Part shown: positions 10,736 to 57,248 of the stretch, piece by piece | Layout: each line of letters opens with the position of its first letter | Numbering within the stretch: position 1 is the stretch's first letter | From: Arenibacter sp. F20364 | GTDB lineage: Bacteria > Bacteroidota > Bacteroidia > Flavobacteriales > Flavobacteriaceae | DNA length: 64,000 nt | Assembly (NCBI RefSeq): GCF_023015905.1 | Contig: NZ_JALKBD010000014.1 | Coordinates: 62,001 to 126,000, forward strand | Reading direction: 5' to 3' | Notes under the pieces: model-generated | The model's input: the letters and a program-made list of their open reading frames with translations, nothing else | Database searches by the model: none | Told to the model about the DNA's origin: nothing | Translations under genes and position numbers: made by a program

Positions 10736-10824
10736 TGTGGTATTTTATAGGCTTCAAAGATGTAATTAAAAAACATAAATATCTATCAATTTTGTACTAT
10801 ATTACTTTTTTATACATTTTTGTC
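10736..10824. promoter_or_regulatory. Divergent promoter region, PhyH operon and AraC regulator
   Basis: An 89-bp AT-rich gap lies between the divergent starts of the PhyH gene (minus) and the AraC-type regulator (plus). It must carry both promoters and is the natural site for regulator binding. I see no clear palindrome, as is usual for AraC sites, which tend to be direct repeats. Confidence 0.55.
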
Positions 10825-21855: not shown

Positions 21856-21903
21856 CGGCAATCAAATTAAATTGTAAATAAGATAAATAATCTAAAGAAT
21901 AAT

Positions 21904-25065: not shown

Positions 25066-25096
25066 TAGTATGATTACCATTTCATTTTAAAACTTA

Positions 25097-27448
25097 ATGA
25101 ACCAAAAAGCACTGTATTATTTTGTAATTGCCCTGTCCTTAATTGGTTGCGCACCAACCGTTTCTGATGTTTACATTGCTGCCAATAAAGAGGAATTTAG
25201 TAATGGGGAGTTAGTTTATTCTTCTATTGGAGAAGGAATAAATGCCGTGGCCCAGCTCAGAAAAGAGGGAATTAAAAATACCTTGACCCTACATATAATG
25301 AAGGGAGAACATAGAATAAACACTCCCATAAGGATAACACCAGAACTTGGTCCTTTGAGTCTTGAAGGAGAAGGCACTGATAAATCGGTAATCAAAGGAT
25401 CCAAAGTGCTCAACCCTAAATGGGAAAAGTACAATGACCATATTTGGGTGGCACAATTGCAAAAGGAGGATAATTTTGACCAGCTTTTTATTGACGGAAA
25501 TAAACAAATATTGGCGCGTTATCCCAATTATGACGAAAACGGAGGGCACTGGCAAGGTCATGCCGCAGATGCTATTGCTCTGGAAAGGGTGGAAACTTGG
25601 TCCAACCCCAAAGGCGCCATAGTGCATGCCATGCACAGCGGAGAATGGGGTGGATTTCACTACTTTGCTACTGGTGTTGATGAAAATGGGGAACTTATAT
25701 TGTCCGGGGGATATCAGAATAATCGTCCTTCAAAGATGCACGCCAAGTACCGTATGGTAGAAAATGTATTCGAAGAATTGGATGCGGCAGGGGAGTGGTA
25801 CTTGGACAAGGACTATAAATTATATTATTGGCCTACCCTGGGAACGGATATTACCAATGTCTTGGTAGAAGGGGTTCAACAAAAACATTTGTTAGAAGTT
25901 GTTGGCTCCGAGGAAGACCCTGTTCGGGATATTAATATAAGTGGAATTAGGTTTGAACATGCCAAGCGTACTTTTATCGAGGATTATGAACCCTTGCTGC
26001 GAAGCGATTGGACCATATATAGGGGGGCAGCCCTTTTTATGGAAGGCGCACAAAAAGTAAATATCCAAAATTGTGAATTTACCAATTTGGGCGGCAACGC
26101 CATATTGGTAAGTAACTTTAACAGGGAGGTGCGCATTGTGGATAACCATATTCACGAATGTGGCGCTTCTGGGATCAGTTTTGTAGGTAGTCCCGAAGCG
26201 GTAAGGTCGCCTTCGTTTCAATATGATGAATTTATTCCTTTGGTGGAACTGGATACTGTTCTAGGTCCTAAATCCAACAAATATCCCAGTAATTCGGTGG
26301 CGGAGAACAATCTGATCTATCGCATAGGGAGGGTGGAAAAGCAAACGGCCGGAGTACAAATTGCCATGGCCATGGATATTACAGTAAGTCACAATAGTAT
26401 ATATGATGTTCCAAGGGCCGGGATTAATATTGGTGATGGTACTTGGGGCGGACATATTATTGAATACAATGATGTTTTTAATACCGTCCTGGAATCTGGG
26501 GATCACGGCGCATTTAATTCTTGGGGGAGGGACCGATTTTGGCATCCAAACCGCGAAACTTTGAATGAAATGGTAGCCGCCAACCCGGAGATGCCCAAAT
26601 GGGATGCCATTCATACCACGGTAATAAGAAATAATAGGTTTCGTTGCGATCATGGATGGGATATAGATCTAGACGATGGTTCGTCCAATTACCACATTTA
26701 TAACAATCTGTGTTTAAATGGTGGTATTAAATTACGCGAAGGCTTCTATCGCACTGTGGAAAACAACATCATGATAAATAACGGTTTCCATCCACATGTA
26801 TGGTTCAAGAACAGTGGAGATGTTTTTAAACACAATATTGTTTTTACGGAGCACAAGGACATAAGATTGCAGGAATGGGGTAAGGAAGTGGATTATAACC
26901 TTTTTCCTGATGCCGAAACTTTGCTGCAAACCCAAAATAAGGGTGTGGATGAAAACAGCATTTTCGGTGATGCATTATTTGTGGATGCCAAATTGGGGAA
27001 CTATACGGTAAAAGAAGAATCAGCTGCTCATAAAGTTGGGTTTAAAAACTTTGATATGGATAGTTTTGGGGTTACCAATAGTGGGCTAAAGTCTTTGGCC
27101 AAATCCCCTACTATTCCCACAATGTTTTTTGGCAATAACAATGAAAAGGATGTGGAGTTCGATTGGCTGGGCTCAAAAATTAAAAGTATTGCTACTATGG
27201 CCGAAAGGTCGGCTTCAGGTTTAAACAAGACTGCAGGTGTCTTGCTGCTTTCAATAGAGCCACAGACCGTTATAGGAAATTCTCCCCTTCAGGTAGGGGA
27301 TGTTATTATATCCGCCGAAGGCGATGAAATAAATACAGTGGCAGATTTAATGAAATCTTATCAAAATAATAATTGGAAAGGGAAATTGAATCTAACTATA
27401 TTTAGAAATCAAAAAGAAAAGGAAGTATCATTCACAACTAAAAAATAA
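25097..27448 (+). CDS. GH141-like right-handed beta-helix glycosidase with C-terminal PDZ domain
   Basis: A 783-residue lipoprotein (LIGC, Cys18). Most of it is a right-handed parallel beta-helix with repeated N-rich rungs (VNIQNCEFTNLGGNAILVSN, VRIVDNHIHECGASGISF, HIIEYNDVFNTVLESGDHGAFNSWGRDRFW). This is the pattern of GH141, whose characterised members include an alpha-L-fucosidase and a xylanase. Residues about 703-783 form a PDZ-like domain (AGVLLLSIEP, SPLQVGDVIISAEGDEINTVADL), unusual for a glycosidase. It lies between a GH29 fucosidase and a sulfatase, so a fucose-releasing role is likely. Family assignment is by motif only. Confidence 0.8.
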   Translation: MNQKALYYFVIALSLIGCAPTVSDVYIAANKEEFSNGELVYSSIGEGINAVAQLRKEGIKNTLTLHIMKGEHRINTPIRITPELGPLSLEGEGTDKSVIKGSKVLNPKWEKYNDHIWVAQLQKEDNFDQLFIDGNKQILARYPNYDENGGHWQGHAADAIALERVETWSNPKGAIVHAMHSGEWGGFHYFATGVDENGELILSGGYQNNRPSKMHAKYRMVENVFEELDAAGEWYLDKDYKLYYWPTLGTDITNVLVEGVQQKHLLEVVGSEEDPVRDINISGIRFEHAKRTFIEDYEPLLRSDWTIYRGAALFMEGAQKVNIQNCEFTNLGGNAILVSNFNREVRIVDNHIHECGASGISFVGSPEAVRSPSFQYDEFIPLVELDTVLGPKSNKYPSNSVAENNLIYRIGRVEKQTAGVQIAMAMDITVSHNSIYDVPRAGINIGDGTWGGHIIEYNDVFNTVLESGDHGAFNSWGRDRFWHPNRETLNEMVAANPEMPKWDAIHTTVIRNNRFRCDHGWDIDLDDGSSNYHIYNNLCLNGGIKLREGFYRTVENNIMINNGFHPHVWFKNSGDVFKHNIVFTEHKDIRLQEWGKEVDYNLFPDAETLLQTQNKGVDENSIFGDALFVDAKLGNYTVKEESAAHKVGFKNFDMDSFGVTNSGLKSLAKSPTIPTMFFGNNNEKDVEFDWLGSKIKSIATMAERSASGLNKTAGVLLLSIEPQTVIGNSPLQVGDVIISAEGDEINTVADLMKSYQNNNWKGKLNLTIFRNQKEKEVSFTTKK

Positions 27449-27463
27449 TAAAGGAACAGAATT

Positions 27464-29047
27464 ATGAAGGGTTGGTATAAGTATTTTTTTGTGGCTGTAT
27501 TATTTGTTGTAACCGTCAATTGCCAAAGTGTTAAAACGACGGAGACAGAGGAAGCACGTCCCAATATTATTTACGTTTTGGCAGATGATCTGGGTTATGG
27601 TGATATTTCTATCTATTATCCAGAAGGTAAAATAAGCACCCCCAATTTGGATGCTTTGGGCGCAGCCGGAATGATATTTACGGATGCCCATACCTCTTCG
27701 GCGGTATGTACTCCTACCCGATACGGGATTATTACCGGAAGATATAATTGGAGAAGTCCTTTAAAAAGTTCGGTCCTCACAGGAAATTCCAAGGCCTTGA
27801 TTCCTCAAAAAAGGACTACCGTGGCTTCACTGCTCAAAAAGGAAGGCTATGAAACGGCTTTTATAGGCAAATGGCATTTGGGATGGGATTGGGCATTAAA
27901 GGATCCAACAGTGGAATCTGGTGAGGGCTGGGATCCTGGCGACTTCGATAATATAGATTTTTCCAAGAAGGTGGGTAACTCTCCCAATACACTTGGTTTT
28001 ACATATTCTTACGGACATTGTGGATCTTTGGATATGGCCCCATATGTGTACGTGGAAAACGGAATGCCAACTATGGTTCCCGATTCGGTTACGGTAAGTA
28101 AGACAAAATATGGTTGGTGGCGCAAGGGGCCTACCGCCCGGGATTTTGATTTTGACGATGTTACTCCTAACTTTTTTAGAAAATCCTTCGGTTACATCAA
28201 AGAAAAGGCAAAAGGGAAATCTCCATTCTTTTTGTATTTGGCACTGCCTTCTCCCCATACCCCCATTCTTCCCACAGAAGAATGGCAGGGAAAAAGTGAT
28301 TTACTTCCTTACGGGGATTTTATGATGATGATCGATGCCTATATGGGGCAACTTACGGCCGTGATAAAGGAAGCTGGGATAGAAGAAAATACCATAGTGA
28401 TCTTTACAAGTGACAATGGCTGCTCCCCAGCTGCCGGTATTGATGAAATGATGGCCAAAGGGCATAATCCAACAGGTATCTATAGAGGCCATAAGGCAGA
28501 TATTTTTGAAGGAGGCCATCGTGTGCCGTTTATGGTTAAATGGCCCTCTAAGATTAAGCCAGATTCCCAATCGGATAAAACCATATGTACAACAGATCTG
28601 ATGGCTACCTGTGCTGAAATAGTGGGTGTTGATTTGAAGGATTCCGAAGGGGAGGATAGTTTTTCCATGCTGCCCTTATTCAATAATCCTACTTCGCCCG
28701 ATTATAAAAGGGAAGCTACGGTACATCATTCCATTAATGGAAGTTTTGCAATAAGAAAGGATAATTGGAAAATGATATTTTGCCCAGGTTCAGGGGGTTG
28801 GAGTGCGCCAAAACCGAACTCGGAAGGGATAGGCGATCTGCCTAAATTTCAGTTGTACGACCTAAGCAAGGATCCACAGGAAAAGAATAATGTTTATGGG
28901 CAGTTTCATGATGTGGAAAGTGCACTGACCAGACTAATGGTCTCCTATATTGAAAATGGCAGAAGTAATCCAGGAGAAAAGCAAAAAAACGACCCAGATG
29001 GTTATGGCAGCAAGGAATGGAAGCAATTGGAGGTATTCTATAATTGA
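27464..29047 (+). CDS. S1-family sulfatase lipoprotein
   Basis: A 527-residue formylglycine-dependent sulfatase. The lipobox Cys is at about 20. The metal-binding DD is at 41-42 (VLADDLGYGD) and the maturation motif is CTPTR (82-86), where Cys82 must be converted to formylglycine. Further marks are GKWHLGWDW, SPHTPILP, and TSDNGCSP, with HKADIFEGGHRVPF near the C-terminal part. It removes sulfate esters from the glycan at the cell surface or in the periplasm. The exact S1 subfamily, and so the sulfate position, cannot be fixed here. It follows the GH141 gene by 15 bp in the same operon. No maturase gene is in the window. Confidence 0.93.
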   Translation: MKGWYKYFFVAVLFVVTVNCQSVKTTETEEARPNIIYVLADDLGYGDISIYYPEGKISTPNLDALGAAGMIFTDAHTSSAVCTPTRYGIITGRYNWRSPLKSSVLTGNSKALIPQKRTTVASLLKKEGYETAFIGKWHLGWDWALKDPTVESGEGWDPGDFDNIDFSKKVGNSPNTLGFTYSYGHCGSLDMAPYVYVENGMPTMVPDSVTVSKTKYGWWRKGPTARDFDFDDVTPNFFRKSFGYIKEKAKGKSPFFLYLALPSPHTPILPTEEWQGKSDLLPYGDFMMMIDAYMGQLTAVIKEAGIEENTIVIFTSDNGCSPAAGIDEMMAKGHNPTGIYRGHKADIFEGGHRVPFMVKWPSKIKPDSQSDKTICTTDLMATCAEIVGVDLKDSEGEDSFSMLPLFNNPTSPDYKREATVHHSINGSFAIRKDNWKMIFCPGSGGWSAPKPNSEGIGDLPKFQLYDLSKDPQEKNNVYGQFHDVESALTRLMVSYIENGRSNPGEKQKNDPDGYGSKEWKQLEVFYN

Positions 29048-30245: not shown

Positions 30246-32399
30246 ATGAATTCCAAATTCCATGTAATTATTTTGTGTCTTATAACTAATTTGTATGTCT
30301 CTCCCAACTTTGGACAGGAGTTGGAGTGGGCCGAAATTGAAAATGGAATTTGGAAAACCAGTGTTGGGGAGCCAGAGGATATAAGTTTACTTGCGGCTGC
30401 TGATGTAAGGCCCAAGGTGGAGGCCCTTGACAAATTGCCCTCGGCAGTTTTTCCTTTTTTAAAGGATAAGATCAAAACCAAAATTATCGATGGAAAGACC
30501 TATTTGCAGTTTCCCTTAGCCAGGGAAGAACAAATTTATGGCTTGGGACTCAATTTTAAAACAGTACATCAAAGAGGTCGAATTATGCAATTGCACGTGG
30601 ATCACTACGGTGGCCGTGATGACGGTCGTACCCACGCCCCAGTTCCGTTCTACGTATCTTCCAAAGGTTATGGTGTCTTGATAGACGCTGCAAGGTATAT
30701 CACCGTGTATGCCGGCACAGGTATTAGGGTCGATGCCGATGATAAACCGGTTTTGAGAGACAGGAACACTGACAAGCAATGGCAGGCGCAACCCTATTCC
30801 GACGCTGTCGAAATTTTGGTACCGGCTAAAGGAACCGATGTTTATGTTTATGGGGGCTCTTCCCCTATGGAGGCGGTACAACGCTATAATTTATACAACG
30901 GCGGGGGTTATATTCCCCCGAAATGGGGTTTGGGATTTACCCAAAGAGTACCCACCTTATATAGCCAAGATGATATAGCCAGGGAAGCCCAAGAGTTTGA
31001 AGATCACGATTTTCCCTTAGATTTTATTGGAGTGGAACCAGGTTGGCACAGTATGTCCTATCCCTGTACTTTTGAATGGGACAAAAAACGCTTTCCGGAT
31101 CCTGAAAAATTTAATAATGAATTATTGGCCAAGGGGATAAGGACCAATTTATGGTTGAATCCCTATGTTTCCCCGGTGGGTTCCCTATATCCTAAATTGA
31201 AAGGTCTTTCTGCTTCGCATACAGTTTGGAATGGAATTGTGCCCGATTTGATGCTAGCCGAAACTCGGGATATTTTGAAGAATCACTTTATTGAAAATCA
31301 TTTAAGTATTGGTGTCAGTGGCTATAAGATAGATGAGGTTGACGGATTTGACTTTTGGGTATGGCCGGATGTGGCTACATTTCCCTCCGGCTATAGTGGC
31401 GAACAAATGCGACAGGTCTACGGTCTGTTGATCCAGGATATGACCGCAAAATGGTTCAAGGAAAAAAATCAGAGGACCTATGGTTTGGTCAGGGCTTCAA
31501 ATGCTGGGGCCAGTCCTTTGCCCTATGTAATTTACAACGATTATTACAGTCATAAAGATTTTATAACGGCCCTTGTAAACAGTAGTTTTATAGGCGTGCT
31601 GTGGACGCCTGAGGTACGTGCTTCAAAAACTGCCGAGGAGTGGTTGCGAAGAATGCAATCCGTTTGTTTCTCACCCATGGCCATGCTGAATGCTTGGGCA
31701 GATGGAACCAAACCTTGGTCATTTCCCGAAGTGGAATCGGCCGTGAGGGATGTCGCTAATTTAAGGATGCAGTTATTGCCTTATATCTATTCTACTTTTT
31801 CACAGTATCATTTTAAAGGCCTGCCTCCATTTAGGGCAATGAATTTGGTGGATGGTTTTTCCTATGACCAAAAGGTGTCTGAAGGTGAACTGGACTCTAC
31901 GGACAATCCCTATAAAATAGCTGTTAAGAGTGAAATAAAGGATCAATACATGATGGGCGACAATATCTTGGTAGCCCCAATGTTTGTAGGGAAAAAGGAA
32001 AGAAAGGTTATTCTTCCCAAAGGAAAATGGTTTGATTTCTACAATGGGGAATTCGTTGGGGAAAACCAGGTGATTTCCGTAACTCCAGGATTGGAAAAAA
32101 TTCCATTATTTGTTAGGGATGGTGGTATTGTTCCCATGCGGCCCATACAGAGACAGGCTCCAAAAATAGGAGAAAAGGTGGACCTGATCATTCGTCATTA
32201 TGGGACGAAGGAAGGGGAATATACACTTTATGATGATGATGGGTTAAGCTTTGATTTTGAAAAAGGACAATTTTCCGAGGTCGAAATAAAGGTAAAAAAA
32301 GACCGTAAAGGAAATCTAAGAGGTAGTATAGGCACTCCAGAAAAAGGCAAGCCATATGGTTATAACAAGAAAGTAACTTGGGAATTTAAAACAAAATAA
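30246..32399 (+). CDS. GH31 alpha-glycosidase, secreted
   Basis: A 717-residue protein with a signal peptide (about 1-23). The N-terminal GH31 beta-sandwich contains EEQIYGLGLNF; the TIM barrel has FPLDFIGVEPGW and the nucleophile region GYKIDEVDG (Asp363). NDYYS takes the place of the usual acid/base segment, and LLPYIYS and YMMGDNILVAPMF lead into the C-terminal beta domains (LPKGKWFDFYNGEF). GH31 includes alpha-glucosidases, alpha-xylosidases and alpha-galactosidases; the specificity is not readable, but a side-chain sugar of a fucan is plausible. It starts about 225 bp after the hydrolase gene and is followed by an esterase at 33 bp. Confidence 0.9.
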   Translation: MNSKFHVIILCLITNLYVSPNFGQELEWAEIENGIWKTSVGEPEDISLLAAADVRPKVEALDKLPSAVFPFLKDKIKTKIIDGKTYLQFPLAREEQIYGLGLNFKTVHQRGRIMQLHVDHYGGRDDGRTHAPVPFYVSSKGYGVLIDAARYITVYAGTGIRVDADDKPVLRDRNTDKQWQAQPYSDAVEILVPAKGTDVYVYGGSSPMEAVQRYNLYNGGGYIPPKWGLGFTQRVPTLYSQDDIAREAQEFEDHDFPLDFIGVEPGWHSMSYPCTFEWDKKRFPDPEKFNNELLAKGIRTNLWLNPYVSPVGSLYPKLKGLSASHTVWNGIVPDLMLAETRDILKNHFIENHLSIGVSGYKIDEVDGFDFWVWPDVATFPSGYSGEQMRQVYGLLIQDMTAKWFKEKNQRTYGLVRASNAGASPLPYVIYNDYYSHKDFITALVNSSFIGVLWTPEVRASKTAEEWLRRMQSVCFSPMAMLNAWADGTKPWSFPEVESAVRDVANLRMQLLPYIYSTFSQYHFKGLPPFRAMNLVDGFSYDQKVSEGELDSTDNPYKIAVKSEIKDQYMMGDNILVAPMFVGKKERKVILPKGKWFDFYNGEFVGENQVISVTPGLEKIPLFVRDGGIVPMRPIQRQAPKIGEKVDLIIRHYGTKEGEYTLYDDDGLSFDFEKGQFSEVEIKVKKDRKGNLRGSIGTPEKGKPYGYNKKVTWEFKTK

Positions 32400-32432: not shown

Positions 32433-34568
32433 ATGATAGGTAAGAGGCTACTATATGTATTTTTAGGATTATTTATAATATCTGAATCCGTAGGTGCAAC
32501 CGTTCAGGAACCTATAAAGATTGCCTGTGTAGGGAACAGCATCACTTACGGGTCGCAAGTGGCCAATAAAGAAAAAAATGCCTACCCGGCGCAACTTCAG
32601 GCTATGTTGGGTGAACAGTATACAGTACGGAATTTTGGGATTAGTGGACGTACCCTGTTGAAAAAGGGAGATAGGCCCTACTGGGAAACCAAAGCCTATG
32701 AAGAAGCCCTTCAGTTTAAGCCTGATGTGGTATTCATTAAATTGGGCACCAATGATAGTAAACTTCAAAATCGGGTACATATGGCCGATTTCGAGACGGA
32801 CTATATAGACCTGATCAACAGTTTTATCGAGACAAACAAAGATGCCCGGATAATTCTTTTGCTTCCGGTTCCAGCCTTTACAACTGATACTACGGGGATT
32901 TGGAACCAGGTCATTACAAAGAAAATTATCCCTTTAACACAGTCGGTTGCCAATAAGACCAAATCGGAGGTATTGGATCTATACCATTTGTTTATAGATC
33001 AACCGGGTTTACTGCCAGACAATGTTCATCCGTCTTCTTTGGGGGCAACGGTAATAGCTAAACGCTTGTATGAAACGGTAATCCAAAAAGAAATCCAACC
33101 CTTGGAAATATTAAAATCCAAGGAGATAAAAGTTTTGCAAACCGAAAATTTTTATGGTTACGATCTCACAGATTTTGAATATAAAGGTATCCTATGTAAG
33201 GTTGTCAAGCCCAAAAAAGGGGCTCCAGGAGCTCCATGGGTACTGAGGGCACGCTTTTGGGGTCATGAACCACAAACGGATATTGCCTTATTGGAAAGAG
33301 GTTTTCATATTGCTTATTGCGATGTGGCAAATTTGTTTGGTGGTCCCGAAGCGGTAAAGCGTTGGGATAGATTTTATAGGTTATTGACCCAGGCCGGACT
33401 TTCCAAAAAAGTAGTGTTGGAAGGAATGAGTAGAGGAGGTTTGATCGTTTATAATTGGGCAGAAAAAAATCCTGAAAAGGTTGCCTGTGTCTATGCCGAT
33501 GCACCTGTACTGGATGGAAAGAGTTGGCCAGGTGGATTGGGTAATGGCAAGGGAAGTTTTGCAGATTGGGAGACCTTTAAAAAAGTATATGACTTAAAGA
33601 CTGAAGGGAATGTTTCCAAATTTAAAGGAAATCCTATTCATAAAATAAAATCAATCGCCCACGGGGGTTATCCCATGATGCACGTATGTGGCGCTGCCGA
33701 TGGGGTGGTACCCATAGATGAAAATACAAAGCCTTTCGAAACAGGAATCAAAGCATTCGGAGGTCTTATCGATGTTGTTTACAAGGAGGGTGTAGGTCAT
33801 CACCCCCATAGCCTGGAGAATCCCAGTCCTATTGTGGATTTTATCCTAAGGGCAACGGGTAAAAAAGTAAATTTCGCCCTTGTACCTGCACCTAGCGCTG
33901 AATATAGATCTGCCGCAGGCTGGAAGGAAGGAAAGGATTGGTGGGCACAGGCCAATGATATTGATTCCTTATGTCTTGACTACAAAGAAATTGATTTACT
34001 CCTTATCGGGAATTCCATCACCCAAGGGTGGGGAGGAAATAGGCCCAATGTCACCCATGCACCAGGAACGGAGGCCGCTGAGTTATATTTTAAGGATTTA
34101 AGATGGATCGGTGCAGGTATTTCAGGGGACAGAACCCAGCATATTTTATATCGCTTAAGTAAGGGAAACTATGAGTCTTCACGGCCAAAAGTGGCAGTGC
34201 TGGCCATAGGAGTCAATAATTTTGAAGATAATACAACAGAGGAAATTGTAGAGGGTATTAGGGAGGTATTGAAAGTAGCCAAGGAGAAATTTACACCCTC
34301 CACAAAAATATTATTTCTTGGGCCCTTGCCTACAGGCCTTGATCTGAACACGGAAAGAAGGGAGAAATACAATAAAATTCATTCTATTATAAAGGAATTT
34401 GGAGACCAGAAGAATGTTTTTTATTACAATACGATCAAGGAATTTTCAGATATAAAAGGATTTTTAAGGACAGATCTTTATTCCCAGGATGGCATTCATT
34501 TATTGCCGGAGGGCTATAAAGTTTGGGGAAGATTTATCAGGGATAAGTATAATGCTATTACTAAATAA
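32433..34568 (+). CDS. Three-domain esterase: SGNH, alpha/beta hydrolase, SGNH
   Basis: A 711-residue secreted protein (signal peptide about 1-22) with three separate hydrolase units. Residues 25-220 are a GDSL/SGNH domain (GNSIT 34-38, Ser36; GTND; DNVHP with Asp196 and His199). Residues about 235-475 look like an alpha/beta hydrolase (nucleophile elbow GMSRGG, Ser333; AADGVVP; His456/457). Residues about 515-711 are a second SGNH domain (GNSIT 526-530, Ser528; GVNN; DGIH with Asp686 and His689). All three nucleophile motifs look intact. It probably removes acetyl or other acyl groups from the glycan. It lies between GH31 and a sialate-O-acetylesterase-type gene. Confidence 0.85.
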   Translation: MIGKRLLYVFLGLFIISESVGATVQEPIKIACVGNSITYGSQVANKEKNAYPAQLQAMLGEQYTVRNFGISGRTLLKKGDRPYWETKAYEEALQFKPDVVFIKLGTNDSKLQNRVHMADFETDYIDLINSFIETNKDARIILLLPVPAFTTDTTGIWNQVITKKIIPLTQSVANKTKSEVLDLYHLFIDQPGLLPDNVHPSSLGATVIAKRLYETVIQKEIQPLEILKSKEIKVLQTENFYGYDLTDFEYKGILCKVVKPKKGAPGAPWVLRARFWGHEPQTDIALLERGFHIAYCDVANLFGGPEAVKRWDRFYRLLTQAGLSKKVVLEGMSRGGLIVYNWAEKNPEKVACVYADAPVLDGKSWPGGLGNGKGSFADWETFKKVYDLKTEGNVSKFKGNPIHKIKSIAHGGYPMMHVCGAADGVVPIDENTKPFETGIKAFGGLIDVVYKEGVGHHPHSLENPSPIVDFILRATGKKVNFALVPAPSAEYRSAAGWKEGKDWWAQANDIDSLCLDYKEIDLLLIGNSITQGWGGNRPNVTHAPGTEAAELYFKDLRWIGAGISGDRTQHILYRLSKGNYESSRPKVAVLAIGVNNFEDNTTEEIVEGIREVLKVAKEKFTPSTKILFLGPLPTGLDLNTERREKYNKIHSIIKEFGDQKNVFYYNTIKEFSDIKGFLRTDLYSQDGIHLLPEGYKVWGRFIRDKYNAITK

Positions 34569-34654: not shown

Positions 34655-36049
34655 ATGAAAAAGTTATTAGGATTCCTGCTTTTGCTTTTTACAGCCAATA
34701 CTTATGGAGAAATTTGGCTTCCTTCCATTCTTTCGGACAATATGGTTTTGCAACAAGAATCGAATGTTACCATTTGGGGGTGGACCACGGCTACCAGTGA
34801 GGAAATTACGGTATATGGTACTTGGAACAATGAAAAAGTGACTGCCAAAGCATATCAAGGGGTCTGGTCTTTGCAGCTACCAACACCCAAAGCAGGGGGC
34901 ACCTATAGCGTTATGGTGGAGGGTCACGAGAACTTGGAGCTGAAGAATGTATTGATAGGGGAAGTATGGCTGGGCTCTGGACAGAGTAATATGCAATGGA
35001 CTCCAAAAAACGGCTTGGAGAATGCCGAGGAAGAAATAAAAAATGCGAACTATCCGGAGATACGCTTTTTTCAGGTAGCGCAGCAGATATCGGACCATCC
35101 TCAAGACCAACTAAAGGGTAAATGGGAGATTTGTACACCGGAAACTATGTCGAAGTTTAGTTCTGTAGCTTATTTTTTTGGTAGGGAACTGCACCAGAAT
35201 TTGGCAGTACCTGTAGGTATGATCAATTCTAGTTGGGGTGGTACACCGGTGGAAGTTTGGTTAAAACAGGAGTTGATATCGGAAGATGCCGAATTGAAAG
35301 TAGCCGCGGAAAAACTGAATGAAGTGGCTTGGTGGCCCAGCGATCCGGGTTTTGCTTACAATGCCATGATACATCCGATTACCAAATTCAATATAGCTGG
35401 GTGTATTTGGTACCAAGGGGAATCCAATAGGGTAAATCCTGTTTCCTATTACAAATCCTTTCCTTTGATGATCGAATCCTGGAGGGAGGAATGGGGCAAG
35501 GATCTGCCATTTTATTTTGTGCAAATAGCCCCTTATAAATATGACGACCCCATGGCTACGGATGCGGCACATGTAAGGGATGCACAACTGTATACCATGC
35601 AAAATTTGGACAATACGGGCATGGTGGTTACTAACGATATCGGGAACCTGGAGAACATCCACCCCACCAATAAGCAGGACGTAGGACATCGTTTGGCACT
35701 TTGGGCCTTGGGCAAAACCTATGGTAGGGATGGGCTGGAATATTCGGGACCTGTTTATAAATCCATGGAAATAAAGAATAAAAAAGTTGTCCTCAATTTT
35801 AATCATGCCGAGAAGGGTTTAATGAAAAAAGGAAAAGACTTACGAGAATTTTTTATTGCAGGTGAAGACCAAATATTTTATCCCGCCAAGGCTAAAATTA
35901 AGGGTAATACTGTAGAAGTGTCGTCTTCAAAAGTAAAAAAACCAGCAGCGGTGCGGTTTGCTTTTACCAATGGGGCATTGCCCAATCTATACAATTCAGA
36001 GGGCCTACCAGCCTCCGCTTTTAGAACGGATAAGTGGAAATTGAAATAA
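34655..36049 (+). CDS. Sialate O-acetylesterase-family carbohydrate esterase
   Basis: A 464-residue secreted protein (signal peptide about 1-18, cut after TYG). Family marks are the N-terminal LPSILSDNMVLQQ, the nucleophile block GEVWLGSGQSNM (Ser111), INSSWGGTPVEVW, CIWYQGESN, and the catalytic pair region VVTNDIGNLENIHPTNKQDVGHRLA. It removes O-acetyl groups. In Bacteroidota these proteins occur in many polysaccharide loci and act on plant or algal glycans rather than sialic acid. Together with the three-domain esterase upstream it argues that the target glycan is acetylated. A GH29 gene follows at 24 bp. Confidence 0.9.
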   Translation: MKKLLGFLLLLFTANTYGEIWLPSILSDNMVLQQESNVTIWGWTTATSEEITVYGTWNNEKVTAKAYQGVWSLQLPTPKAGGTYSVMVEGHENLELKNVLIGEVWLGSGQSNMQWTPKNGLENAEEEIKNANYPEIRFFQVAQQISDHPQDQLKGKWEICTPETMSKFSSVAYFFGRELHQNLAVPVGMINSSWGGTPVEVWLKQELISEDAELKVAAEKLNEVAWWPSDPGFAYNAMIHPITKFNIAGCIWYQGESNRVNPVSYYKSFPLMIESWREEWGKDLPFYFVQIAPYKYDDPMATDAAHVRDAQLYTMQNLDNTGMVVTNDIGNLENIHPTNKQDVGHRLALWALGKTYGRDGLEYSGPVYKSMEIKNKKVVLNFNHAEKGLMKKGKDLREFFIAGEDQIFYPAKAKIKGNTVEVSSSKVKKPAAVRFAFTNGALPNLYNSEGLPASAFRTDKWKLK

Positions 36050-36072: not shown

Positions 36073-37413
36073 ATGAAGAAACTTATTACCTCTATTTTAC
36101 TATTGACGATCATGGCAACTTCTGCCCAAGAACAGCTTACGGATACCGTTTTGCAAAAAGAACAGAAAATGCAGTGGTTCAAGGATGCCAAATTGGGAAT
36201 TTTTATCCATTGGGGCTTGTATTCGGTCAATGGAATAGACGAATCCTGGTCATTTTACAATGGGTATATTTCCCATAAGGATTATTTAAAACAGACCAAG
36301 GGGTTCACTGCCAAAAAATACAACCCACAAGCTTGGGCGGATTTGATAAAGCGCAGTGGCGCCAAATATTCGGTCATTACCGCCAAACACCATGAAGGCT
36401 TCGCCCTTTGGAATACCAAGTTTGGGGATTTTAATGCGGTAGAAGGAGCCACCTCCAAGCAAGACGTGCTTACCCCCTTTGTATCGGAACTCCGAAAAAA
36501 TAATTTAAAAGTAGGGATCTATTATTCTTTACCCGATTGGTCATACGATGATTATACCCATTTTACGCGGGATTCCATTCGATATCAAATTTCTGAAGAA
36601 CCTAAGCGATGGAACAAGTTCCTAAACTATTATCAAGGCCAATTAAAGGAATTGTCCAATAATTATAATCCTGACCTGTATTGGTTTGATGGGGATTGGG
36701 AACACAATTCGGAGGAATGGCAAGTGCCCAAGGTGAGGCAAATGCTCTTTGATAAAAATCCCAATACCATTTTAAATTCTAGATTGCGGGAGCAAGGGGA
36801 TTACGCTACCCCGGAACAGGGGATGCCGATCACTCGGCCAAAAAACAAGTATTGGGAACTATGTCTTACCATGAATGATTCATGGGGATTTCAAAAAAAC
36901 GATCACAACTACAAAACCACTGACCAAATAATTGGAATTTTTGTAGATGTCATTGGTAACGGGGGCAATATGTTACTGGATATAGGTCCCAAAGGCGATG
37001 GTAGTATTCCGGAGGAGCAGGTGGCCATCTTGGAAGGATTGGGTAGGTGGACCAGCAAACACAAGGAAGCCATTTACGGTACCCGCTCCGGGATTCCTAA
37101 AGAACACTTCTATGGCCCCACTACCTTGTCCAAAGACGGAAAAGTTCTCTATTTATTTGTAAAGGGCAACCCCAATGGTGAGGTCGTTATTCGAGGACTT
37201 AAAAATAAGATAAACCGCATTTATGTGGTGGGCGAGGGTACCAAGCTATCACATCAGGTAATTGGTAAGGTATATTGGAGCCATTACCCAGGTATTAATT
37301 ATATAAAGTTACCGGAACATGTTCTGGATGAAAACATGACCGTTCTAGCCTTAATGTTGGATGGCGAGGTAGATCTATATCGCGAAGATGGTGCGGTGAT
37401 AGAAAGTAATTAG
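36073..37413 (+). CDS. GH29 alpha-L-fucosidase (single-domain type)
   Basis: A 446-residue secreted enzyme (signal peptide about 1-19). Motifs are KLGIFIHWGLYSV (40-52), ITAKHHEGFALW (102-113), the nucleophile Asp206 in LYWFDGDWEH, and DVIGNGGNMLLDIGPKGDG with GTRSGIP toward the end. The compact layout and motifs fit GH29 subfamily A, with broad exo-alpha-L-fucosidase activity. It lies between an acetylesterase and a sulfatase (24 bp on each side), which fits stepwise deacetylation, desulfation and fucose release. The acid/base residue cannot be pointed out with certainty by eye. Confidence 0.94.
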   Translation: MKKLITSILLLTIMATSAQEQLTDTVLQKEQKMQWFKDAKLGIFIHWGLYSVNGIDESWSFYNGYISHKDYLKQTKGFTAKKYNPQAWADLIKRSGAKYSVITAKHHEGFALWNTKFGDFNAVEGATSKQDVLTPFVSELRKNNLKVGIYYSLPDWSYDDYTHFTRDSIRYQISEEPKRWNKFLNYYQGQLKELSNNYNPDLYWFDGDWEHNSEEWQVPKVRQMLFDKNPNTILNSRLREQGDYATPEQGMPITRPKNKYWELCLTMNDSWGFQKNDHNYKTTDQIIGIFVDVIGNGGNMLLDIGPKGDGSIPEEQVAILEGLGRWTSKHKEAIYGTRSGIPKEHFYGPTTLSKDGKVLYLFVKGNPNGEVVIRGLKNKINRIYVVGEGTKLSHQVIGKVYWSHYPGINYIKLPEHVLDENMTVLALMLDGEVDLYREDGAVIESN

Positions 37414-37437: not shown

Positions 37438-38997
37438 ATGAAAAGATACGTATTGTGGTGTTTTAGTGTTGGCCTTCTAATATTGGGCTGTAAGGAGAAA
37501 GTGATTCCTAAGGATGATAGTGCACCCTCAGTACCTAATATGATACTTTTTTTCGTGGATGATATGGGTTGGCAGGATACATCGGTCCCCTTTTGGAGTC
37601 GAAGAACCGCTTATAATGAGCTCTACCAAACCCCAAATATGGAGCGATTGGCAAAGGAAGGAATGAAATTTACCCAGGCCTATTCAACAGCAGTATGTTC
37701 ACCTACAAGGGTAAGTCTAATGACGGGCATGAATGCGGCCAGGCATAGAGTCACCAACTGGACCTTGCAAAAGGATAAACTACAACCCATGGAAACCAAC
37801 CATAAGACCCTTCATTTTCCAGAGTGGAACGTAAATGGTTTGAGTCCGGTTGCAGGGATAGAAAAGGCAGTATATGCAACTCCCTTGCCACAGGTTTTGA
37901 AGGAAGCAGGCTATCATACCATACATGCCGGAAAGGCCCATTTGGGAGCCATAGGTACACCAGGGGAAGATCCCTTAAAACTTGGATTTGAAATTAATAT
38001 TGCTGGCCATGCGGCTGGGGCCCCTGGGAGTTACTTGGGGACCGATAATTTTGGGAATGGAATTGAAGGTAAGGAAGTGTGGGCGGTACCGGGATTGGAT
38101 AAATATCACGGCAAGGATATATTTTTAACGGAGGCCATTACCCAAGAGGCACAACTGGCCATGGATTCGGCCTTGGAAAGAAACAAGCCTTTCTTTTTGT
38201 ATATGGCGCATTATGCCGTACATACCCCCATAATGGCCGATAGCAGATTTGTGCAGAAATATTATGACAAAGGGCTAGATTCCACCGAAGCCAAATACGC
38301 TGCCTTGGTAGAGGGAATGGATAAGAGTTTGGGAGATATTATGGATTATCTGGACAACAAAAATATTTCGGACAATACCATTATACTTTTCATGTCGGAC
38401 AATGGCGGACTTAGTGCCCTGGCCAGGGGAGGTGAAAAGCACAGCCATAACAAACCCTTGAGCAGTGGAAAAGGCTCGGCACATGAAGGGGGGATCCGGG
38501 AGCCCATGTTGGTAAAATGGCCTGGAAAAATAGCTCCCAATACCGTTACAGATCAACAAGTAATTATCGAAGATTTTTACCCGACCATTTTGGAAATGGC
38601 AGGTGTTGAAAACTATGAAACAATACAGCAGGTAGATGGAATTAGTTTTGTGCCGGTACTTTCTGGAAACAGCAGTAGCGGCAATCGACCCTTATTTTGG
38701 CATTATCCCAATGAATGGGGGCCATCAGGTCCCGGGATTGGGGCTTCCAGTAGCACCAGGGTGGGCGACTGGAAATTTATTTATTACTACAATGACGGTA
38801 GTATGGAGTTGTTCAACCTAAAGGAGGATATTGGGGAAACGCAGAATTTGGTAAAAGAGCAGCCGGAAAAAGCACGGGAGTTGGCAAAGACATTAGCGAA
38901 TTACCTAAGAAAAGTGGAGGCCCAAATACCTTCACGAAAAGATACTGGGGAGCAGATTGCCTATCCTGATGAGGTTTTGAATTCCCAGAAAATGTAA
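37438..38997 (+). CDS. S1-family sulfatase lipoprotein
   Basis: A 519-residue sulfatase. Lipobox LILGC (Cys18); metal-binding DD at 41-42 (FFVDDMGWQD); maturation motif CSPTR (87-91). Also present are HAGKAHLGAIGTPG, AHYAVHTPI, MSDNGGLSALARGG and GSAHEGGIREPMLVKWPG. The layout resembles the S1_16-like group common in fucan and carrageenan loci; that subgroup is a guess. It hydrolyses sulfate esters outside the cytoplasm. It ends one base before the propeller-GH29 gene, which shows tight coupling between the two. Confidence 0.93.
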   Translation: MKRYVLWCFSVGLLILGCKEKVIPKDDSAPSVPNMILFFVDDMGWQDTSVPFWSRRTAYNELYQTPNMERLAKEGMKFTQAYSTAVCSPTRVSLMTGMNAARHRVTNWTLQKDKLQPMETNHKTLHFPEWNVNGLSPVAGIEKAVYATPLPQVLKEAGYHTIHAGKAHLGAIGTPGEDPLKLGFEINIAGHAAGAPGSYLGTDNFGNGIEGKEVWAVPGLDKYHGKDIFLTEAITQEAQLAMDSALERNKPFFLYMAHYAVHTPIMADSRFVQKYYDKGLDSTEAKYAALVEGMDKSLGDIMDYLDNKNISDNTIILFMSDNGGLSALARGGEKHSHNKPLSSGKGSAHEGGIREPMLVKWPGKIAPNTVTDQQVIIEDFYPTILEMAGVENYETIQQVDGISFVPVLSGNSSSGNRPLFWHYPNEWGPSGPGIGASSSTRVGDWKFIYYYNDGSMELFNLKEDIGETQNLVKEQPEKARELAKTLANYLRKVEAQIPSRKDTGEQIAYPDEVLNSQKM

Positions 38998-38998
38998 T

Positions 38999-41389
38999 AT
39001 GGATATGAAACTTAGACTGCTCTTTATTTTCTGCTTCAGTCTCCTGCTGGCCAATGCCCAAAATGGGGAGGATGATCTGTACCTATATGACGATTTTAAG
39101 GCGGTGTCCGAAGAAAATATATTTAAAACGGAAGGATATTATAATTGGGGAAGTTCCATCATCAAGGAAAGGGACGGAAAATATCATCTATTTTATTCCC
39201 GCTGGAAAAAACAATACGGGTTTTATGGATGGCTTACCCATTCGGAAATAGCCCATGCCACTAGTAAAAGTCCAGCCGGGCCATGGAAATTTAAGGAAAC
39301 TGTACTTAAAGGTAGGGGCAATGGCTACTGGGATGCTATTACTGCACACAATCCAAAAATCAAATATTTTGAGGGCAAGTACTACTTGTATTATATAGCG
39401 ACCAATTTGGGAGGCAAGGATTATACTGATAATGATCTGGTGCAAACTGCTAAAACCGGTTATAGTCACCCCAACTGGAAATTACTACGCCCCAATCAAA
39501 GGACAGGGGTGGCCGTATCAAATTCGCTTAATGGACCTTGGTCCAGAATGGACAAACCCTTGGTGGAGCCCTCTGGACCCATAGCTACCCTTACGGTTAA
39601 TCCGGCTATTGATCGCGGCAAGGATGGTAGGTATTATTTAATAATAAAAGGCGATAAGCCCAACGAAAAGAATTTTGTTAGGAACCAGGCGGTGGCGGTG
39701 GCGGAACATCCTGACGGGCCTTTTACTATTCAAGGGAATCCGGTAATAGATTATATGGATACCGAGGATATGTCTATTTGGTACGATGAAAATCGAGATA
39801 GGTTCTATGGCGTTTTCCATGCCCATAATTATATTGGACTAGTAACCTCAAATGACGGAACCGATTGGGAAAAGGCCAATGAGTTTGTTGTTAAAAATAA
39901 AGAAATTTTATTGGAAGAGGGTACTACACTAGTGCCAGATAGGATGGAACGACCTTTTATTTATAAGGAGAATGGCCAGCCGACAGTTTTGTCCGTAGCG
40001 GTAAAAAAGGGGGACGAATCCTATACCGTTTTTATTCCCATAAACAAACATGAATTTCCCGTTCCCAATAAAAGACAATTGGTATGGCAAGAAGCAGAGC
40101 TTGGGGTGGTGTTTCATTATGACCTTCACGTGTTCGATGGAATAAAATATGGGCAGGGAAACAATAGGATAGATCCTGTTGAGGACTATCAAATTTTTAA
40201 TCCAGAAAAACTGGATACCGACCAATGGGTAAAGGCAGCCAAAGATGCTGGAGCTACCTTTGCAATTTTGACGGCCACTCATGAGACAGGATTCGCCTTG
40301 TATCAATCGAACGTTAATCCATACAGTGTAAAGGCCTTAAAATGGAAGGATGGAAAAGGGGATGTAGTGGCGGATTTTGTAGCATCATGCAGGAAATATG
40401 GAATTAAGCCGGGGATTTACCTGGGAATCAGGTGGAATTCATTTTTGGGAGTGCACGATTTTAAAGTAAACGGGGAGGGCGATTTTAAGAAGAACCGACA
40501 GCAATGGTACAATAGGATGGTAGAGGGAATGGTCAAGGAAATATGTACGAATTATGGGGAACTGTTTGAAATTTGGTTCGATGGGGGCGCGGACCATCCA
40601 AAAAATGGGGCTCCTGATGTTTTGCCCATAGTAAGGCAGTACCAACCCAATTGTTTGTTTTACCACAATGGGCAATTGGCAGAGGCCCGTTGGGGAGGGT
40701 CTGAATCTGGAACGGTTGCCTATCCCAATTGGTCCACTTTTCCATATAGGGCCACAGGGGCAGGTGAAACTGCCAAAAAGAATATAGCAGATAACAATTT
40801 TCAATTACTGAAAGAAGGGGATGCCAAGGGTAAATTCTGGGTGCCTGCCATGGCAGATGCTCCGCTAAGGGGTTATAATGGCCGGCATGAATGGTTTTGG
40901 GAACCTGGGGATGAGGCCCATATATTTCCTTTGGAAAATTTAATGGATATGTACTATAAATCGGTAGGGAGAAATGCCACTTTGATAATGGGGCTTACCC
41001 CTGACCCGGATGGATTGCTTCCAGAGCCAGATGTGCAGCGCTTAAAGGAATGGGGAGAGGAGATAAATAGAAGGTTTTCCAATCCTTTGGCTTCCACAAA
41101 AGGCATGGGTAAGGTGTTGGAATTAAAGTTAAAGGAATCCCTGCCAGTGAACCATGTAATAATTCAGGAAGACATTGCCATGGGCGAACGTATAAGGAAA
41201 TATCAAATTGAAGGTTACTCCGGTGGTCGCTGGATTACTTTGGCCAATGGGGAGAGCATAGGAAACAAAAGAATTGAGAAATTTGACACTATAAAATTAA
41301 GTAGATTACGAATAAAAATTATAGATTCGGACGGTTTGGCGCAAATTAAGAATATGAGTGCCTATTTTGTTGCTGAAAATGGAAGTTAA
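38999..41389 (+). CDS. Bimodular glycosidase: beta-propeller (GH43/GH117-like) fused to GH29
   Basis: A 796-residue secreted protein (signal peptide about 1-20). Residues about 24-350 look like a five-bladed propeller of the GH43/GH117 type (HLFYSRWKK, YWDAITAHNPKI, NPAIDRGKDGRYYLI, TEDMSIWYDENRDRFYGVFH, MERPFIY). Residues about 360-700 are GH29-like, with the nucleophile-type motif IWFDGGADHP (Asp528) and SVGRNATLIMGLTPDPDG, followed by a beta domain. The conserved GH29 block TAKHHDGF is replaced by TATHETGF (425-432), and HFG/HWG by FHYD. The GH29 half may therefore have altered activity. The first residues could start at Met1 or Met3. Confidence 0.82.
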   Translation: MDMKLRLLFIFCFSLLLANAQNGEDDLYLYDDFKAVSEENIFKTEGYYNWGSSIIKERDGKYHLFYSRWKKQYGFYGWLTHSEIAHATSKSPAGPWKFKETVLKGRGNGYWDAITAHNPKIKYFEGKYYLYYIATNLGGKDYTDNDLVQTAKTGYSHPNWKLLRPNQRTGVAVSNSLNGPWSRMDKPLVEPSGPIATLTVNPAIDRGKDGRYYLIIKGDKPNEKNFVRNQAVAVAEHPDGPFTIQGNPVIDYMDTEDMSIWYDENRDRFYGVFHAHNYIGLVTSNDGTDWEKANEFVVKNKEILLEEGTTLVPDRMERPFIYKENGQPTVLSVAVKKGDESYTVFIPINKHEFPVPNKRQLVWQEAELGVVFHYDLHVFDGIKYGQGNNRIDPVEDYQIFNPEKLDTDQWVKAAKDAGATFAILTATHETGFALYQSNVNPYSVKALKWKDGKGDVVADFVASCRKYGIKPGIYLGIRWNSFLGVHDFKVNGEGDFKKNRQQWYNRMVEGMVKEICTNYGELFEIWFDGGADHPKNGAPDVLPIVRQYQPNCLFYHNGQLAEARWGGSESGTVAYPNWSTFPYRATGAGETAKKNIADNNFQLLKEGDAKGKFWVPAMADAPLRGYNGRHEWFWEPGDEAHIFPLENLMDMYYKSVGRNATLIMGLTPDPDGLLPEPDVQRLKEWGEEINRRFSNPLASTKGMGKVLELKLKESLPVNHVIIQEDIAMGERIRKYQIEGYSGGRWITLANGESIGNKRIEKFDTIKLSRLRIKIIDSDGLAQIKNMSAYFVAENGS

Positions 41390-41400
41390 AATATAAAAAC

Positions 41401-42183
41401 ATGGATTTACAACTGAAGGATAAAGTAATATTGGTAACAGGGGGTTCCAAAGGAATTGGTCAAGGTATAAGCATGCTATTGGCTGCCGAAGGCGCTATTC
41501 CGGTCATTGTTGGAAGGGACAGAAAAAGTATGTTGGAGGTGGTTGCGGATATCGAAAGAAGTGGTGGAAAAGCCTCTTTTGCTACAGCAGAACTTACCGA
41601 TCCGGAACAATGTAGACTTGCCGTTGAAAGCGCCGTTGAAAAATTTGGTAAGATTGATGGTGTGGTAAACAATGCTGGGGTCAATGACGGCGTTGGACTG
41701 GAGAATGGGAATTATGAAGATTTTATAAGGTCTATCAACCGCAACCTTACCCACTATTATTTAATGGCGCATTATGCCTTGCCGGAACTAAAGAAAACTC
41801 AGGGGTCTATTGTCAATATTGGTTCTAAGACCTCGGTGACCGGGCAAGGGGGTACTTCGGGCTATGCAGCGGCCAATGGTGGGCGTAATGCCATTACAAG
41901 GGAATGGGCCGTGGAACTGCTTCCGTTCAATATACGGGTCAATGCGGTTATTGTGGCCGAATGTTATACCCCATTATATGATAGATGGATAAAGACTTTT
42001 GACAATCCAGAAGAAAAATTAAAGGGTATAACCGATAAAATTCCGTTGGGACAAAGAATGACCACGGCGGAGGAAATTGCAAGTATGGTGGCCTTTTTAC
42101 TTTCCAATAGATCCAGTCACACCACAGGGCAACTACTATTCGTTGACGGGGGATATACCCATTTGGATAGGTCGATCACTTAG
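41401..42183 (+). CDS. SDR oxidoreductase, probable L-fucose dehydrogenase (Asn in place of catalytic Lys)
   Basis: A 260-residue short-chain dehydrogenase with TGGSKGIG (13-20), NNAG (90-93) and Tyr155. The usual YxxxK reads YAAAN, so the catalytic Lys159 is Asn (codon AAT at 41875). The flanking GGRNAITREWAVELLPFNIRVNAVIVAECYTPLYDRW is of the type seen in an SDR group linked to L-fucose and similar sugars. By position, next to FucP and a mutarotase, it probably oxidises L-fucose to L-fuconolactone. The function is inferred from pathway gaps, and the substitution makes catalysis less certain. It starts 12 bp after the fused glycosidase. Confidence 0.78.
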   Translation: MDLQLKDKVILVTGGSKGIGQGISMLLAAEGAIPVIVGRDRKSMLEVVADIERSGGKASFATAELTDPEQCRLAVESAVEKFGKIDGVVNNAGVNDGVGLENGNYEDFIRSINRNLTHYYLMAHYALPELKKTQGSIVNIGSKTSVTGQGGTSGYAAANGGRNAITREWAVELLPFNIRVNAVIVAECYTPLYDRWIKTFDNPEEKLKGITDKIPLGQRMTTAEEIASMVAFLLSNRSSHTTGQLLFVDGGYTHLDRSIT

Positions 42184-42251
42184 ACACATGAATAAAATTA
42201 TAACAACAATCATATTAAAGGTATTAATCAATAACAATAATCAACAATCCA

Positions 42252-43562
42252 ATGAAAGACCAAAGACCAGTAGTAGTATCTAAAAAGGTACTAATTCCCT
42301 TTATTTTAATTACTTCCCTATTCGCACTTTGGGGTTTTGCCAATGCAGTTACCGATCCAATGGTGCAAGCCTTTAAAAAGGTTTTGGAACTCTCCAATTC
42401 GCAGGCTGCTTGGGTGCAAATGGCCTTTTATGGCGGTTACTTTTGTATGGCCCTACCGGCAGCACTTTTTGTGCGCAAATACTCCTATAAAGTGGGGGTA
42501 TTAATTGGCTTGGCCTTATACGCAGGAGGGGCTTTGTTATTCTATCCCGCGGCCATTACGGAACAATTTTGGTTTTTTTGCTTGGGGCTCTATGTACTTA
42601 CCTTTGGGTTGGCATTTTTGGAAACTACTGCCAATCCCTATATTTTGGCCATGGGAGCCCCAGAAACGGCTACCCAGCGTTTAAATTTGGCCCAAGCCTT
42701 TAATCCAGTAGGATTATTGTTGGGCTTATTGGTGGCGCAGCAATTTGTACTTAAGAAATTGCAGTCGGATGATATCGCGGATTATTCATCCCTTGATGAG
42801 GCCAAAAAAGCATTGATCAGGACTACGGACCTAATGGTCATTAGGGATCCTTATGTTATTTTGGGCTTGGTAATTTTGGCGGTTTTTGTCCTCATAGTCA
42901 TCAGTAAAATGCCGCAGGCCAAAGATGAAGGAGGTATCCCAAGTTTGAGAGATACCTTTAGTGGTCTGTTCAAAAACAAGAAATATGTGCTGGGTGTTTT
43001 GGCACAAATATTTTATGTAGGGGCACAGATCATGTGCTGGACCTATATTTATCAATACGCGGAGGCCATAGGGATTTCTAGCGAGGATGCCGCCAATTAC
43101 CAATTTGCCGCCTTTATCCTTTTCTTGGTGGGAAGGGCCATTGGAACTTATATGTTGCGATTTATGAGCCCGGGTAAACTGTTGATGTACTTTGCCGTTT
43201 TTGCAACGCTGTGTTGTATAGGTACCATTTATATTGAGGGAATGATAGGATTGTACTGTTTGGTCGGTATAACTTTTTTTATGTCTCTAATGTTCCCTAC
43301 CATTTATGGCATTGCGCTTAACGGACTCAATGAGGAAGAATCCAAAATTGGCGCTGCAGGTCTGGTGATGGCAATTGTAGGGGGGGCTTTAATGCCTAAA
43401 CTGCAGGGAATGATTATTGATGCCGGGGGAAATGCAGTAAATGATATAAAGATAATGGGGGCCACCGAGGTTAATTTTTCCTTTATCCTTCCAGCCTTGT
43501 GTTTTGTCTATATCGCATGGTACGGATTAAGGGTATTTAAAAAATATGAACTAGCAGCTTAG
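42252..43562 (+). CDS. fucP: L-fucose:proton symporter, FucP-type MFS permease
   Basis: A 436-residue inner-membrane protein with about 12 hydrophobic helices. Motifs of the fucose-galactose-glucose:H+ symporter family are FALWGFANAVTDPMVQAFKK, QMAFYGGYFCMALPAAL, FGLAFLETTANPYILAMG and RLNLAQAFNPVG. Homologous FucP imports L-fucose with a proton. Its place between the probable fucose dehydrogenase (68 bp) and a mutarotase (59 bp) supports L-fucose as the substrate. Confidence 0.92.
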   Translation: MKDQRPVVVSKKVLIPFILITSLFALWGFANAVTDPMVQAFKKVLELSNSQAAWVQMAFYGGYFCMALPAALFVRKYSYKVGVLIGLALYAGGALLFYPAAITEQFWFFCLGLYVLTFGLAFLETTANPYILAMGAPETATQRLNLAQAFNPVGLLLGLLVAQQFVLKKLQSDDIADYSSLDEAKKALIRTTDLMVIRDPYVILGLVILAVFVLIVISKMPQAKDEGGIPSLRDTFSGLFKNKKYVLGVLAQIFYVGAQIMCWTYIYQYAEAIGISSEDAANYQFAAFILFLVGRAIGTYMLRFMSPGKLLMYFAVFATLCCIGTIYIEGMIGLYCLVGITFFMSLMFPTIYGIALNGLNEEESKIGAAGLVMAIVGGALMPKLQGMIIDAGGNAVNDIKIMGATEVNFSFILPALCFVYIAWYGLRVFKKYELAA

Positions 43563-51087: not shown

Positions 51088-51167
51088 GATAAATAAGCTT
51101 ATAATGTTATTTGGTAAGGTATTTTTAATTTTAAATGGGCCCATAGTTTGGAGGCCAACTATAATAC

Positions 51168-52391: not shown

Positions 52392-52448
52392 TTCTTGGTT
52401 ATAAAAAGCGTTCCCGTACTATCCATTCTTCTTTTTATCTTTTACTAA

Positions 52449-53609: not shown

Positions 53610-53688
53610 GGTGATTTTTGTTTTATCTATTTGACAATCAATAAATGGGGGATTTATAACTTAGTTTGTATGGTTAAAATAATGAACT

Positions 53689-57216: not shown

Positions 57217-57248
57217 TACTTTAATTTTTGTGTATTGAATTTTATCTT

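Follow-up and report, generated by a model that had tools for sequence, protein, structure and literature searches.

Multicatalytic carbohydrate esterases, including one with three esterase domains, are already known. BoCE6-CE1 and DmCE1B carry several esterase domains per chain; each is reported to have two catalytic domains and to act on xylan (PMC8040265). Fll4 of Flavimarina sp. Hel_I_48, published in 2025, has the order CE6-CE1a-CE1b. Its authors present it as the first enzyme to combine three distinct esterase domains and report no activity of the third one on any tested substrate (PMC12247016). It is a single polypeptide from a marine member of the Bacteroidota, encoded in a PUL, and mixes an SGNH fold (CE6) with CE1.

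Acetylation of fucoidan is reported to hinder GH141 endo-fucanases (PMC12786026). Among the best matches in the open-licence literature on fucoidan, judged by title and the opening of the abstract, no fucoidan deacetylase was described. A conserved three-site enzyme in fucose loci is a candidate deacetylase for fucoidan breakdown and a possible tool in seaweed-polymer processing. It also raises the question of why multiple accessory esterases are gathered on a single chain.

Here we describe a chain with three predicted esterase domains in a window of 64,000 nucleotides (the whole stretch of DNA that was analysed) from Arenibacter sp. F20364. Its domain combination differs from those of the known enzymes. 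Fll4 belongs to a xylan locus and has its CE6 and CE1 domains around a CBM48-like center, with no activity detected for the third domain, whereas the window chain is built from other domain families and lies in a fucose locus.

Domain structure of the chain

The order SGNH, alpha/beta hydrolase, SGNH in one open reading frame is confirmed at the level of sequence by Pfam and by residue conservation (Table 1). PF13472 matches the protein in two separate stretches (1.4e-46, above cut-off), of which the one on the N-terminal SGNH domain covers residues 32-205. The original prediction had given this order, had placed Ser36 and Ser528 each with its own D-x-x-H, and had called the protein a fusion of dissimilar SGNH units. 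All three points hold: the two motifs are D196/H199 and D686/H689, and the best BLASTP match between the units is a mere 13 residues around GNSIT (E 0.15), which rules out a recent duplication.

The N-terminal domain has profile matches to many SGNH structures. It also matches the AxeA1 model NF042968, at 190.3 bits, which is far under the curated cut-off of 700 and does not reach the equivalog threshold; the alignment covers the C-terminal part of the model (positions 269-457) and leaves the first 268 positions unmatched. The closest solved relatives of the C-terminal domain are PAF-AH Ib (1fxw, 3e-16) and sialate O-acetylesterases of Bacteroidota. Structure comparison likewise finds a PAF-AH fold (3dt8, E 8.9e-12, TMt 0.80). 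Identities are 22-29% to the former and 23-25% to the latter, and unlike the window chain these were solved as single SGNH domains. The chain is not of the Fll4 type, as Pfam gave no match at E 0.01 to CBM48 or to PF00756 (Esterase, CE1-type); the CE1 domains of Fll4 are alpha/beta hydrolases.

Table 1. Features of the window around the three-domain chain
Feature	Position	Strand	Basis and remarks
GH29 with F5/8C domain, beta-helix/PDZ protein (GH141-like), sulfatase	22822..29047	+	Pfam; sulfatase 3.4 kb upstream of chain
Right-handed beta-helix protein with C-terminal PDZ	25097-27448	+	Distantly like GH141 BT_1002 (5mqp 9.9e-8) and 9rx2
GH31 glycoside hydrolase, upstream neighbor	30246..32399	+	PF01055
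Three-domain esterase ORF (predicted)	32433..34568	+	711 aa, ATG start, signal-like N-terminus; homologues similar in length
N-terminal SGNH hydrolase domain	32505..33086	+	About residues 25-218; Ser36, Gly69, Asn107, Asp196-x-x-His199
Middle domain, predicted alpha/beta hydrolase	33129..33878	+	Residues 233-482; GMSRGG with Ser333, Asp423, His457
C-terminal SGNH domain and conserved entry segment	33879..34565	+	Residues 483-711; Ser528, Gly562/565, Asn595/596, Asp686-x-x-His689
SASA-family CE20-type esterase, next gene	34655..36049	+	PF03629; PDB 9h4u 'Carbohydrate esterase FI8' 2.9e-98
GH29 alpha-L-fucosidase	36073..37413	+	PF01120 5.7e-91
Sulfatase	37438..38997	+	PF00884; 2.9 kb downstream of chain
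GH43-like + GH29 fusion	38999..41389	+	Pfam; 3gza 4.6e-199 over residues 350-791
L-fucose dehydrogenase and FucP fucose:H+ symporter	41401..43562	+	NF052481, TIGR00885, both above cut-off
Third sulfatase	49621-51144

The fucose locus and the proposed role

The Pfam scan covered 29 proteins lying between the two ends of the window. The CE20-type protein of the next gene is predicted to be a fourth esterase in the gene cluster; its structural match 9h4u is, going by the name of the structure, presumably the Fl8 CE20 enzyme. Further genes of the locus encode mandelate-racemase-like, SDR and FAH-family enzymes (the last with 355 bits to a model whose cut-off is 500), as well as SusC/SusD, accompanied by FecR and an ECF sigma factor.

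Several neighbors deserve mention in their own right. The protein at 38999-41389 appears to be two fused glycosidases: its N-terminal half is weakly GH43-like, and its C-terminal half is a GH29 near 3gza. The PDZ domain on a glycan enzyme (25097-27448) seems unusual. Enzymes that would suit an oxidative fucose pathway and, separately, a fucose isomerase and an FGGY kinase are found in the same 64 kb (20533-22680, 29160-30020, 41401-43562, 55435-58934). Three adjoining BNR-repeat proteins lie beside a sulfatase on the minus strand (51168-54873).

Fucose genes are also found near the chain in other genomes. We compared 26 three-domain loci (the 28 distinct chains described below, minus those of the window and L187) with 40 hand-picked loci. 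Twenty of the latter have the middle domain in another setting (L146-L165), and 20 have a match to the N-terminal SGNH domain only (L166-L185; proteins of about 700 residues with such a match were passed over). Within about 10 kb, GH29-type genes were found in 20/26 three-domain loci versus 7/40 comparison loci, and the same counts were obtained for sulfatases. The figures were 14/26 versus 3/40 for CE20-type genes and 17/26 versus 2/40 for genes of fucose uptake or catabolism. Fisher p values run from 1.4e-7 to 7.6e-5 and overstate the case, the loci being related and the comparison loci picked by hand from match lists; also, searching with proteins of the window itself favors near relatives. 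Without the seven loci of the genus Arenibacter, the share with GH29-type genes is 13/19. Six of the 26 have none by this test (L129, L130, L143, L144, L145 and L070); those scanned in L070 are housekeeping genes. Among the stand-alone or two-domain relatives tested, the majority are not near such genes (AB_other, 2/20).

On balance we favor the reading that the chain is an exported multi-position deacylase, most likely a deacetylase, that works together with the CE20-type esterase encoded next to it on a glycan that is sulfated, contains fucose and probably comes from seaweed. We infer that one exported polypeptide carries three independent Ser-His-Asp ester hydrolases, each of them catalytic. 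The chain and its neighbor would remove O-acyl groups, most likely acetyl, at different positions of the glycan or of oligosaccharides derived from it. Deacylation would clear the way for the fucosidases (GH29), the beta-helix protein (GH141-like) and the sulfatases encoded in the locus, and the freed fucose would then enter through FucP and be degraded by the adjoining fucose enzymes. In favor of this reading, the enzymes to which the outer domains are most closely related (AxeA1, below cut-off; PAF acetylhydrolase; sialate O-acetylesterase) have acetyl esters as substrates, and nine catalytic residues are invariant (see below). Further points for it are the content of the locus, the co-location with GH29 and fucose genes, the fusion of the first two domains to GH29 and the split form of L165 described below, and the reported effect of acetylation on GH141 enzymes. 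Points against the reading are the six loci without GH29-type genes, a decayed relative (L012) and the lack of activity seen for the third domain of Fll4. The original prediction had spoken of a sulfated-fucan locus and of a processive or multi-position deacylase for a heavily acylated glycan. Fucose-glycan genes with sulfatases are indeed present, brown-algal sulfated fucan itself being one reading of them, and multi-position action is the best reading; for "processive" there is no evidence either way, and "heavily acylated" is an inference.

The true substrate might instead be a different glycan that carries fucose, such as a xyloglucan-like one or a xylose-containing exopolysaccharide, and not brown-algal sulfated fucan. 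GH31 and GH43-like genes adjoin the chain, and CE20 is linked to xyloglucan, but the chain is flanked by sulfatases on both sides, with a third farther on, and the nearest named genomes belong to Arenibacter, a marine genus. We consider such a substrate rather unlikely, though worth keeping in view.

Catalytic residues and their conservation

The triads are assigned as Ser36-Asp196-His199, Ser333-Asp423-His457 and Ser528-Asp686-His689. Across the 28 distinct three-domain homologues, which reach down to about 45% identity to the window protein, not one of these nine residues varies, so the three active sites are probably maintained. The 28 are the window's chain, six named relatives (L006-L011), chains from 16 genomes of the same family (L013-L019, L021-L029), L042, L082 and L111 from two other families, the Phocaeicola record L070 and the IMG/VR contig L187; L020 is identical to L009 and was merged with it. 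Mean pairwise identities of the N-terminal, middle and C-terminal domains are 62, 63 and 54%, and the minima are 36, 49 and 36%. The SGNH blocks were counted in a first set of 28, which held one identical pair, lacked L187 and gave the same nine-residue invariance. Blocks I, II, III and V are present in the N-terminal domain (S36, G69, N107, D196, H199), as are the blocks of the C-terminal domain (S528, G562, G565, N595, N596, D686, H689), each residue in 28/28.

In the middle domain, G-x-S-x-G, an acid and a His are present in order; the first Gly of the nucleophile elbow is Ala in 7/28 of the first set. A census of 90 middle domains in all architectures found Ser333 in 89, Asp423 and His457 in 90 each, and His456 in 68, with Ser, Asp and His457 jointly kept in 89. 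Since Asp423 and His457 are universal and His456 is not, the triad is most likely Ser333-Asp423-His457. The site had been proposed as Ser333 in GMSRGG with His456/457: Ser333 and His457 stand, His456 drops out and the acid is new. The sole middle domain of the 90 that lacks the nucleophile Ser (L069, 1486-2355) has Val in its place and sits on a long branch.

It could also be that just one or two of the three domains catalyze on the glycan, with the others binding sugar or acting on something minor. L012 (Chitinophaga barathri, 10007-11638) has lost the Ser of the N-terminal domain and most of the middle domain; the C-terminal site alone is intact, and the gene adjoins a GH29 that shares 62% identity with the window's GH29a across 737 aligned positions. 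No activity was reported for the third domain of Fll4 (PMC12247016), and the same could hold for the window chain. These cases have to be set against the nine residues kept in every one of the 28 chains and the complete triad in 89 of 90 middle domains, which make partial catalysis unlikely. The preferred reading is still that of three working sites.

The middle domain and its fusions

The middle domain is assigned to an alpha/beta-hydrolase family without a clear relative in the PDB. In the window protein it scores below the Pfam gathering cut-offs (PF00561 20.9/25.8, PF00326 19.6/22.6, PF12146 15.8/27 bits); several relatives score above them (L096, PF00326, 38.2/22.6; L078, PF00561, 37.2/25.8 bits). 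The predicted fold is better argued by these relatives than by the structure models. AF2 with an 8-sequence alignment gave pLDDT 57 for the full chain, mostly <50 in the middle domain, and 53 for the middle domain alone. Foldseek on such a low-pLDDT model gave a best E of 1.3e-5 and TM values of 0.19-0.27 among the 50 matches listed, which their names or known classification place among the alpha/beta hydrolases. When 17 middle domains were used for a profile search of the PDB, nothing convincing emerged: the best E was 0.0019 and the longest good stretch 40 residues. NCBIfam gave no name to the middle domain in any of eight relatives, three of which had esterase or depolymerase matches far below cut-off.

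The middle domain is widely fused and is the more novel part of the chain. The 90 proteins leave out L012 (67 middle-domain residues) and L073 (an overlapping copy of L043) and include the added L165 and L187; L047 and L099 were omitted at one step of the analysis. The architectures are SGNH-middle-SGNH in 28, the middle domain alone in 19, middle plus a CE17-like SGNH in 19, and SGNH-middle in 11. Rarer forms are SGNH-middle-CE17-like (3), SASA (CE20-type)-middle (2), SGNH-middle-GH29 (2) and SGNH-middle-GH99-like (2, the label resting in one of them on a Pfam match below cut-off). SGNH-middle-GH95-like, GH43-middle, beta-helix/PDZ-middle and BNR-middle-CE17-like were seen once each. Six proteins are cut by the ends of their stretches (L035, L043, L092, L100, L113, L120), so their architectures are minimal.

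The CE17-like module is fused to the middle domain in 23 proteins and is absent from the window protein. Its label rests on a match to 6hfz (3.4e-25), the structure named RiCE17 in PMC9487903. Three predicted esterases on one chain thus occur in at least two forms, the second ending in this CE17-like domain. The window arrangement is one among a family of fusions, uncommon but not unique.

When the twelve architecture labels are mapped on a maximum-likelihood middle-domain tree, 22 changes are needed, against a possible minimum of eleven. SGNH-middle-SGNH needs 3, with 23 chains in one well-supported clade. Domain trees of the 28 chains point mostly to joint inheritance: of the 13-14 well-supported splits in each comparison, 1-3 conflict. 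The pair of N-terminal SGNH and middle domain is fused directly to GH29 in two genomes (L043, L165). L165 shows a split form, with a relative of the C-terminal SGNH (79.6 bits) as a separate gene two genes upstream of the fusion. In L100, a beta-helix/PDZ protein, the middle esterase domain stands behind the PDZ.

One could tentatively go further and propose, against somewhat more doubt than confidence, that the middle domain founds its own carbohydrate-esterase family, a portable module joined to deacetylases, fucosidases, GH43, GH95-like and beta-helix enzymes. The window chain would then deacetylate at three positions and strip a sulfated fucan completely ahead of the fucosidases and sulfatases. 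Another possibility is that the middle domain is an esterase of a different kind, such as a uronate-ester or methyl-ester hydrolase, and that the chain acts on esters of different chemistry instead of acetyl groups at three positions. In 90/90 middle domains an Arg follows the nucleophile, much as in the GCSR motif of CE15 glucuronoyl esterases, and the PDB profile search brought up no close acetylesterase. Relatives of the domain are nonetheless joined to esterase modules of SASA type and CE17-like kind, and the Pfam scan of 29 window proteins brought up no name of a uronate-processing family. We regard a second ester chemistry as improbable.

Distribution

The chain is uncommon, as the original prediction had held. 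In full length it was found in 18 of the 397 genomes sampled from the family to which the window belongs (its own genome included), in 2/395 genomes of a phylum sample, one being the window's own, and in 2/244 and 1/199 genomes of two other families, the samples overlapping. It occurs in at least three bacterial families. The nearest named relatives are five Arenibacter (74-79% identity), and two further genomes of the window's genus have it at 77 and 74%. That a misassembly or an accidental fusion produced the chain can be dismissed, the same domain order and a similar length being kept in 28 distinct sequences.

The middle domain in any form was found in 10/395 genomes of a class sample (E 1e-20). 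The C-terminal SGNH subtype is largely restricted to the three-domain chain: in samples of 150 and 149 genomes, 6 of 8 matches at E 1e-20 were in three-domain proteins. The other two were the stand-alone gene that lies close to the fusion in L165 and, in G1361, an open frame of 588 aa.

Among 72,556 plasmid records, one covers at least 80% of the query chain. L070, a record labeled as a plasmid of Phocaeicola massiliensis, carries RecQ, IMPDH, PPIases and LPS-transport genes and therefore looks chromosomal. A search of viral contigs for more chains gave one useful sequence, L187 (4998-7109 of an IMG/VR contig), with a gene that by eye is helicase/methylase-like about 2.3 kb upstream; L186 and L188 are the same contig, and L189 is a 27% SGNH match. 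Carriage as cargo of mobile elements was rejected, even though L187 comes from an IMG/VR contig and L070, whose scanned genes are housekeeping genes, from a record named as a plasmid.

Export

Most of the 28 chains have a plain signal-like N-terminus, as read by eye, and the chain is predicted to be exported to the periplasm or the cell surface. About six have a Cys at a lipobox-like place, four flagged by a script (L009, L016, L018, L019) and two seen by eye (L017, L023); the script's flag on L042 looks spurious. The window chain is probably periplasmic, and some of its relatives are probably lipoproteins.
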